A stretch of 64,000 nucleotides of DNA from Candidatus Zymogenaceae bacterium (lineage in GTDB: Bacteria > Desulfobacterota > Zymogenia > Zymogenales > Zymogenaceae): assembly GCA_016933535.1 (NCBI GenBank), contig JAFGAS010000086.1, positions 124,001 to 188,000 of the forward strand, given 5' to 3'. This document shows, one piece after another, positions 2,055 through 28,611 of the stretch. The position numbers and the translations under genes were made by a program. Under the pieces are notes generated by a model. That model was not told where the DNA came from, made no database searches, and saw only the letters and a list, made by a program, of their open reading frames with translations. The stretch's first letter is position 1. Every line of letters starts with the position of its first letter.

Positions 2055-2912
2055 TCATGATTTTGTAATATCCCGATGATTTATCTTGATGTTATACACA
2101 CCGTCCTCGGCAACGCTCCGGGCCAATTGTTCGGCGATCACCACCGAGCGATGCATTCCGCCCGTACATCCTATCGCCACCGTTAAATATGATTTGCCCT
2201 CTTTGACATAGTTTGGCAGCAGGAAATGCATCAATTGCACAAATCGTGAAAGAAACTCCTTTGTCTCTTCCTTTTCGAGGACGAACTCCTTGATCTTTGG
2301 ATCGAGGCCGGAAAGGGATTTCAGGTCCTCAACAAAATAGGGATTTGGCAGAAACCTGACATCCATCACAATATCGGCGTCCGACGGCGCGCCGTAGCGG
2401 TATCCGAACGAAACGATCGTCAGGTTGAGCCTCTTTTCCGGTAGCGACCCCCTGAAGTAGTCAAAAATGACCTCCCGTAACTGATGGGGATTGAGATTGG
2501 AGGTGTCAATGACTCGATGTGCCGTGTTCTTGAGCTCACCGAGGAGCCCCCGCTCCGCCTCGATCCCCGCATCGAGGTCTTCACCCCCGATGGGATGGAG
2601 CCTGCGGGTTTCCTTATACCTCCTGATCAGCGCCCCGTCATCGGCATCCAGGAATATAATCCGATAATCTTCTCCCCGTCGTTTAAGTTTTTTCAATACG
2701 GCGGGAAGCTCGGAGAAGAACATCTTTTCCCGCATATCCATCACCACGGCCACTTTGTTGATATCCCATCTCGACTGTGAAGTAAGCTCCAGCACCTTGG
2801 GCAGGAGTACCACCGGGAGGTTATCGATACAGAAATATCCGATATCCTCAAGGGCCTTAATTGCCGTGCTCTTGCCCGAACCGGATAGTCCGGTAATGAT
2901 AACAAGTCTGAT
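2055..2912 (-). CDS. rapZ: RNase adapter / nucleotide-binding protein RapZ, apparent AUC start
   Basis: The protein (285 residues if started at 2912) has the P-loop ITGLSGSGKSTAI at its very N-terminus and the family motifs SFGYRYGAP and GCTGGMHRSV. In E. coli RapZ binds GlmZ sRNA and directs RNase E; in other bacteria it is an uncharacterised P-loop protein linked to PTS and cell-wall control. The P-loop lies upstream of every in-frame ATG, GTG or TTG: the codons before it read GTA, GTA, AGG, AGA, GAG, ACC, ATC, AGA. The ATC at 2912-2910 sits 7 bases after a strong AAGGAG and aligns with the usual initiator Met of the family. The first conventional start (2813) would delete the P-loop. Either AUC is used as start or one base was misread. 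Confidence 0.9.
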   Translation of the reverse strand: MRLVIITGLSGSGKSTAIKALEDIGYFCIDNLPVVLLPKVLELTSQSRWDINKVAVVMDMREKMFFSELPAVLKKLKRRGEDYRIIFLDADDGALIRRYKETRRLHPIGGEDLDAGIEAERGLLGELKNTAHRVIDTSNLNPHQLREVIFDYFRGSLPEKRLNLTIVSFGYRYGAPSDADIVMDVRFLPNPYFVEDLKSLSGLDPKIKEFVLEKEETKEFLSRFVQLMHFLLPNYVKEGKSYLTVAIGCTGGMHRSVVIAEQLARSVAEDGVYNIKINHRDITKS

Positions 2913-2917
2913 GGTCT

Positions 2918-2925
2918 CTCTCCTT
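2918..2925 (-). promoter_or_regulatory. Shine-Dalgarno site that fixes the rapZ start
   Basis: AAGGAGAG on the minus strand, lying just after the hprK stop codon (2929-2927). Its spacing to the ATC at 2912 is ideal for initiation and there is no ATG, GTG or TTG at any suitable distance. It is the main evidence that rapZ starts at an AUC codon. Confidence 0.7.
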
Positions 2926-2926
2926 A

Positions 2927-3424
2927 CTACCGGGGGATACCGATAAGTTTTGCGATTCTCCCGCTTGTCCTGGACCCCCCGAGTATAACGTCGCTCACGA
3001 CACAGAGCAGGCCGCGAGCATCAATGTCACTTCCGATTCGGATCTCCGGTATTTCCCGGCCCAACAGAGCAATGACGCTGACGGCAGGAGTATCGGCCCT
3101 CCGAATCTTGCCCTGACGTCTCACCAGGCTCACTACCAGGTCAATAGTGACCTCATCGAGCACAAATGGCCGGCCGAGCGCCGCAGACACATCGATGATT
3201 CCCACGCCCCTGATCTCGATGAGTCCCTTGAGGCGATTGGGCGCACGTCCCCGCAAGCCGTCAGGTCCGACAAAGATCTCCACCACGTCATCGGCGACGA
3301 GTTGAGCGCCCTCATATAAAAGAGAAAGGGCGAGGCGGCTCTTGCCCGATCCGCTCTCCCCCATCAATACTATTCCCCTGGTCATCATTTTCACCAGGGT
3401 GGCGTGAATCGTTTTTTGTTTCAC
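2927..3424 (-). CDS. hprK: HPr kinase/phosphorylase, C-terminal kinase domain only
   Basis: A 165-residue protein matching only the kinase domain of HprK, which in full-length form is about 310 residues. It has the P-loop GESGSGKS (residues 22-29), the VADDVVEI catalytic segment (44-51) and the signature GLIEIRGVGIID. HprK phosphorylates HPr on serine and reverses the reaction, tuning PTS activity. The N-terminal domain is absent: the frame is open only back to the ptsN stop, adding 11 codons (EYPEDIISEYF). The GTG at 3424 has no good ribosome binding site, whereas AGGAG overlaps the ptsN stop and is followed in frame by two ATT codons, so the true start is uncertain. Short HprK forms are known from alphaproteobacteria. 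Confidence 0.88.
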   Translation of the reverse strand: MKQKTIHATLVKMMTRGIVLMGESGSGKSRLALSLLYEGAQLVADDVVEIFVGPDGLRGRAPNRLKGLIEIRGVGIIDVSAALGRPFVLDEVTIDLVVSLVRRQGKIRRADTPAVSVIALLGREIPEIRIGSDIDARGLLCVVSDVILGGSRTSGRIAKLIGIPR

Positions 3425-27069: not shown

Positions 27070-28351
27070 ATGTCGGATCAGAGACAAAAGATAGAACTTC
27101 TTGTCAAGTCCGCAGTGTGGAAGGCCGCCAAGAACAACGATGAGGGCGCCTTCAAAGACTACTGTGAAGCGATACGGGTCTTCCCCGCTTCCTCTCTGGC
27201 CCAGATGAAGGCGGGCGAATGCTGCGTGAGACTCGGCAAGACCGACGACGCCGTAGGATACCTGTCGGCGGCGGCGAACAAATACGCCGAGGAAGGCACC
27301 ATCCTCAAGGCGATTGCCGCCTATATAACTCCATCCTGAAAGTCGACCCAAACACCCCGGGGATAAGCGACAAGCTTGCCCGTCTGGGTGGAGAGAATCC
27401 ACGGCCCGAAACGATAAACCGGCCGAAACCGGGTATCGAGGTCTCCTCTCCCTCGACGGACGCCGCCAACCAGCCGGATATCCGTGATCTCCTGGAAAAG
27501 AGCGTTTCCCAGTCGTTGGAGTTCTCACTATCCCGAAAGACCGAGTCTACCCTGCCCAAAGATCGGATAATCGCCTGTAGGCAGAAGGTCGAGCTGTTTC
27601 ATGATCTGTCCTACGGCGACTTTCGGGCGCTCGTGGATCAGCTCACGCCCATTACCTTTTCGAAGGGCGATATAATCATAAAGGAAGGCGATACGGGAGA
27701 TTGATTCCCTGTATGGGATTGTAACGGGACGGCTGAGTATTTTCCGCAACGATGAATTTGGAAACGAGATATGGATTAGTAATCTTGAAGAGGGAAGTTT
27801 CTTCGGCGAGTTCGGCTTCTTTTCGAATGCCAGACGATTCGCCTCTGTCAAGGCCGACGTCAAGACAACCTTCTTTGAGTTGACGAAACGGGATGCAGAC
27901 ACGATCTGTCGTTCCCACCCCGGAATGAAAAATGTCTTTATTTCGTTCTACAAGAAGCGCGTGCTGGATACTCTATTGGCCGCGTCCCCCCTCTTCTCGC
28001 CCCTTGCTCCCTCCAGAATGGCCGCCATCCTGGAACACTTTACGCCCGCCCGGTTTGCCGCCGGGGACGTGGTCATTAAACAGGATACCCAAATCCATGT
28101 ATCTGATCCAATCAAGGACTGCCGCCGTCGTCTCTCGCGACACCGGCGGCCAAACGCTTATTTCCCGGCTCCTACCAAGTGATTTTTTCGGCGAGGTGGC
28201 CCTGTTGACGGGAATGCTAAGAACAGCCGACGTTGTTACCGAAACCGATTTGCGGATCATGGAAGTCGCACGCGACAATTTCAAGAATGCAGCACGTGAC
28301 TATCCGGAAATCGTCGAAACACTCAAGAAATACGTCAGGACGCACCTATAG
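27070..28351 (+). pseudogene. TPR plus double cyclic-nucleotide-binding domain protein, broken by three frameshifts
   Basis: Joining three reading frames gives one coherent protein of about 425 residues: N-terminal TPR-like helices (GAFKDYCEAIRVFPASSLAQ), a linker, a first cNMP-binding domain (TFSKGDIIIKEGDTGD joined to LYGIVTGRLSIF and GSFFGEFGFF) and a second (FAAGDVVIKQDT joined to MYLIQSRTAAVV and SDFFGEVALLTGM). The frame breaks at 27322-27327 (TATATA, one extra TA), 27699-27706 (GATTGATT, one extra GATT) and 28088-28090 (CCC, one extra C); removing these restores the frame each time. All three are short tandem duplications. The protein would be an effector-type regulator. It is probably a decaying gene. 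Confidence 0.8.
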
Positions 28352-28611
28352 GATGGGCCGCCGTCCGCCATCGGGAGTAAGGCCTGAAGTTACGTCAGGG
28401 AATTGAATGGAAACCGTAATATCGGCAGTTTATGCAGCACCCGATTAGGTCCAGGGCTGCAAGTGCGGCCGTATCCGCAATCTGGCAGTGATTTAGTTCG
28501 ACCCCCCTCTCAACGCCCTGCCCGCTTACCCAGTAAATCTATCGACCGCGTCCAAAAGACGCCTGCGGGGCAGCGGGTATTTCCGGTCAATATCTACGGT
28601 GTTCTATCTCC

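Follow-up and report, generated by a model that had tools for sequence, protein, structure and literature searches.

A candidate AUC start codon for rapZ in a Candidatus Zymogenaceae bacterium

Non-canonical start codons are rare in bacteria and are easily missed, since gene finders take only ATG, GTG and TTG. One experimentally studied case is pcnB of E. coli, which starts at AUU. The infC gene starts at ATT in E. coli and at ATC in Streptomyces, and such third-base near-cognate starts give a low yield but can be accompanied by a strong Shine-Dalgarno sequence (SD), as in the Streptomyces gene sigR (PMC5472188). Initiation factor IF3 requires the initiator tRNA to form Watson-Crick pairs at the first two bases and acts against a poor pair at the third; in a reconstituted system, the product from weak third-base pairs was low and fell further as IF3 was raised (PMC10158994). 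Re-initiation without an SD is also inhibited by excess IF3 (PMC2268962). A start of this type is also found in an E. coli rpoS variant in which ATG was changed to ATA: this near-cognate ATH start still yields protein, up to 5-fold less, although it is a point mutation from laboratory cultivation and not a fixed arrangement (PMC12864459).

Here we describe a rapZ gene for which an AUC start is the best-supported explanation. The gene lies in a 64,000-nt stretch of a Candidatus Zymogenaceae contig (hereafter the window), in a minus-strand cluster composed of an hpf-type gene, ptsN, hprK and rapZ, followed by genes for the IIA, IIB and IIC components of a mannose-type PTS. The first gene of the cluster was taken to be of hpf type by reading alone. 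The features around the 5′ end of rapZ are the following.

2055..2912, minus strand: coding sequence of rapZ with ATC as its first codon (285 codons and a stop)
2910..2912, minus strand: ATC, the proposed start codon, with no in-frame ATG, GTG or TTG up to the upstream stop and an SD 7 nt before it
2920..2926, minus strand: SD TAAGGAG, which pairs with the anti-SD over 7 nt without a mismatch, at a spacing of 7
2924..2929, minus strand: tandem stops TAG TAA at the end of hprK, with 14 nt (TAAGGAGAGAGACC) from TAG to ATC
2932..2936, minus strand: run of five C near the end of hprK, where a -1 slip would put hprK in the rapZ frame
2890..2932, minus strand: possible weak hairpin around the hprK stop, the SD and ATC (-9.6 kcal/mol, z = -1.28)
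2927..3424, minus strand: hprK, a short form with a GTG start that encodes the C-terminal kinase domain alone (Pfam Hpr_kinase_C, 2.6e-27)

Read on the minus strand, hprK ends with CCC CGG TAG (stop at 2929-2927), and is followed by TAAGGAGAGAGACC, by ATC at 2912-2910 and by AGA CTT GTT ATC ATT ACC GGA CTA TCC GGT TCG GGC AAG AGC. The N-terminus encoded from ATC is thus I-R-L-V-I-I-T-GLSGSGKS, and six codons separate ATC from the P-loop GLSGSGKS, as the original prediction had stated. That prediction had also held that no ATG, GTG or TTG lies upstream in frame before the hprK stop. This proved correct even beyond the hprK stop: counted from the P-loop, the rapZ frame runs 43 codons upstream before it meets an in-frame stop just above 3020, and none of the three codons occurs between that stop and the P-loop. 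The first canonical in-frame codon is GTG 2813, which lies past the P-loop; standard annotation would start rapZ there and thereby remove the P-loop. ATC occupies what we take to be the place of the initiator methionine of E. coli RapZ. A second odd start was suspected at hprK but was ruled out, as GTG 3424 aligns with the ATG of hprK in a family relative (G003). The hprK gene is itself short (165 aa), and those of the three family relatives (G001, G002 and G003) are apparently short forms too. The inverted repeat at 2890-2932 was likewise set aside, being no stronger than in shuffled sequence and absent in relatives.

The product of rapZ carries both domains expected of RapZ over its full length, namely an N-terminal P-loop domain (RapZ-like_N, PF03668, 2.9e-52, residues 1-155) and the C-terminal domain (PF22740, 4.4e-47). 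Differences from the G003 gene at codon positions 1, 2 and 3 were 0.31, 0.21 and 0.67, respectively, and Tajima counts gave 20 unique protein changes in the window's RapZ against 33-44 in the relatives, which corresponds to a slower rate. Judged from these comparisons, rapZ is intact and constrained, with no sign of decay.

The strong AAGGAG at good spacing that had been noted ahead of ATC was borne out, and extends to TAAGGAG: the core sits at 2925-2920, 7 nt ahead of ATC. A match of at least 7 nt to the anti-SD at a spacing of 4-11 was found at 42 of 13,120 random coding positions (0.32%) and at only 5 of the 86 homology-supported starts on the rapZ contig. The corresponding duplex energy of -9.2 kcal/mol is equalled or exceeded in 27% of these 86 starts and at 2.8% of random coding positions. 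These values assume the standard anti-SD sequence, the assembly being without a 16S gene. Ahead of the upstream alternatives (GTA, GTA, AGG, AGA and GAG) no SD better than -3.3 kcal/mol was found. The SD could in part be a chance product of the purine-rich gap, and its strength fits either compensation for a weak codon or a chance improvement.

To place this arrangement among other bacteria, rapZ loci were read in 29 stretches from whole genomes (58 other genomes searched) and in 80 from a second collection. There were 110 matching loci, from which the window's own gene and one locus whose 5′ end had diverged beyond alignment were left out. In each of the 108 other loci a canonical start is present at the codon equivalent to ATC or further upstream, the window being the sole exception. 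This start lies mostly 3-4 codons upstream of the equivalent codon; in 12 loci it is exactly there, and the residue at ATC is therefore acceptable as a RapZ N-terminus. Only three further genomes belong to the class, each of them from the same family, and their RapZ proteins are 56-60% identical to that of the window. G001, G002 and G003 have ATA, ATT and ATA, respectively, in the position of ATC, an internal isoleucine in each case, and their rapZ genes start 6-7 codons above it, at an ATG overlapping with the stop of hprK. For the original prediction this comparison cuts both ways: an upstream in-frame start is indeed present in relatives, which counts against it, but the 6-7 extra residues that this start adds are not conserved.

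The window, G002 and G003 agree in the number of HPrK residues that follow a GGS/CGS motif, while the distance from the hprK stop to the P-loop is 35 nt in the window against 31 nt in G002 and G003, that is 4 nt longer. Counted from the hprK stop, the ATG of the relatives matches an out-of-frame CCC in the window. Because the stop-to-P-loop distance differs and the position of the ATG is now an out-of-frame CCC, the overlapping upstream ATG has been lost in the window's lineage. We infer that ATC is an inherited isoleucine codon that now serves as a start.

Other near-cognate starts were sought in a survey of about 134 gene pairs between the window's contig and some 1.95 Mb of G001. Fifteen contig genes were flagged, mostly found on inspection to be cases of homology extending past a normal start; those left were rapZ, infC and a frameshifted gene at window 27070-28354. 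The infC gene (contig positions 301466-301987) begins ATA AAA GAG behind GGAGG, and the same ATA is found in all three family relatives. As an ATH start of infC has long been known, we regard this as a positive control and no discovery, one which shows that near-cognate ATH starts are used in the family. At a locus of the same phylum (L137), ATA also stands at the infC start position. A scan of the 368-kb contig for coding potential did not have the power to pick out even rapZ. The third gene left (plus strand), which encodes a TPR plus cyclic-nucleotide-binding-domain-like protein, is disrupted by about three frameshifts when compared with several neighbouring homologues of G001; it is probably a pseudogene, possibly an assembly error. 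A short gene upstream of the window (contig 110230-110602, minus strand) also appears split over two frames when compared with its homologue in G001.

With no canonical alternative, an exceptional SD, a constrained gene and a near-cognate ATA start of infC in the same family, we consider initiation at AUC (2912-2910) the best-supported explanation for rapZ, with a probability of roughly 0.7. After the loss of the ATG, the inherited isoleucine codon seven codons before the P-loop would have become the start. AUC would be decoded by the initiator fMet-tRNA to give a protein beginning (f)MRLVIITGLSGSGK, the weakness of the codon being compensated by the strong and well-placed SD, and ribosomes finishing hprK 14 nt upstream would probably help initiation through a presumed coupling. 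For rapZ, it is a prediction that ribosomes do initiate at AUC, and the same holds for the coupling to hprK, the low output and the response to IF3. Expression could be very low, because for the near-cognate ATA in E. coli a level of at most 1% of ATG is given (Hecht 2017, cited in PMC12864459).

An assembly base error, or a variant private to this strain in a population with a canonical start at the ATC codon or slightly upstream, is unlikely but is the most probable of the alternatives. The sequence comes from a single draft genome (metagenome-type, 2.94 Mb, 86 contigs, 89% complete), all 108 other loci are canonical, and one wrong base would remove the anomaly; several single-base changes in the gap would yield a canonical start. 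Against this, 169 sense gene alignments covering 171 kb of the contig were without an internal stop, a figure that bounds substitution error only loosely. The count was restricted to sense alignments, a six-frame count being swamped by shadow open reading frames, and the one stop reported among them sits upstream of a gene start. Only one or two genes on the contig are frameshifted. Isoleucine at this position in three of three family relatives also means that ATC is predicted by inheritance, a modest argument, whereas an error in an ATG would give an isoleucine codon in only three of nine cases. That rapZ is decaying, or that its sole product is a form without the P-loop translated from GTG 2813, is extremely improbable; this GTG is the first canonical in-frame codon, but no purine-rich SD precedes it, and the constraint over the full length, P-loop included, and the slow protein rate are at odds with both.

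Initiation at another non-canonical codon further up, such as GTA 2930-2928, appears very unlikely. The codon at -13 from the P-loop, which is GTA in the window, is ATG in G002 and G003, and the residues VVRRET loosely resemble GKKKD; there is, however, no SD ahead of it (-3.0 kcal/mol), and when distances are taken from the end of hprK, the counterpart of the old ATG is the out-of-frame CCC, so that the codon match is probably a coincidence. Equally hard to credit is an HPrK-RapZ fusion, made by -1 slippage on the CCCCC before the hprK stop or concealed by a misassembled length of the C run. Relative to hprK, rapZ lies in the -1 frame, which is open to 3020, and a -1 slip on the C run would re-pair perfectly, but the number of HPrK residues to its end is the same as in G002 and G003, and a fusion would leave the SD unexplained. 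Apparent natural HPrK-RapZ fusions, suggested by long upstream open frames at two loci (L018 and L027), were both examined and rejected as shadow frames of hprK.

How the AUC start of rapZ should be understood is a separate matter. In the original prediction it might be a deliberate low-level or IF3-regulated start. We find this unsupported: the three family relatives use ATG, and every one of the 108 other loci is canonical. If a near-cognate start served regulation, one would expect it to be conserved, as it is in infC and sigR, and the near-cognate codon of rapZ is not conserved in relatives. Co-option after the loss of the upstream ATG would explain ATC without design or selection to keep output low, because ATC is an ancestral-type isoleucine codon. 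That AUC is kept by selection, as an IF3-dependent valve that makes RapZ scarcer than HPrK, links its supply to how translation initiation stands and replaces the tight stop-start overlap by which the relatives couple the two genes, is in our view improbable. By analogy, some control of rapZ by IF3 would nevertheless be expected.

The AUC start of rapZ shares with the known near-cognate class the lack of a canonical codon in frame at the conserved N-terminus and the presence of an SD at normal spacing (TAAGGAG, spacing 7). The pcnB gene is comparable as an RNA-metabolism gene whose isoleucine-type start keeps its output low, although it is a different gene. Like rapZ, infC has an ATH near-cognate start (AUU, AUC or AUA) behind a strong SD, but its start is conserved across the family and is autoregulatory in E. 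coli, while the ATC of rapZ is found in one genome only. The IF3-repressed sigR of Streptomyces, with its GTC start, is like rapZ a regulatory operon gene with a third-base near-cognate start and an extensive SD; 32 of 34 species share the GTC, which has been experimentally shown (PMC5472188), whereas the ATC of rapZ is conserved in no relative and is a start predicted from sequence.

No earlier report of a non-canonical rapZ start was found in the literature at the level of titles and abstracts, and rapZ is a plausible candidate addition, of modest significance, to the known rare near-cognate starts. The locus also offers a readable route of origin for such a start, in which an overlapping upstream ATG would have been lost and an inherited isoleucine codon behind a strong ribosome-binding site used in its place. 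If confirmed by reads, rapZ would join infC, pcnB and sigR as a gene with a third-base near-cognate start.
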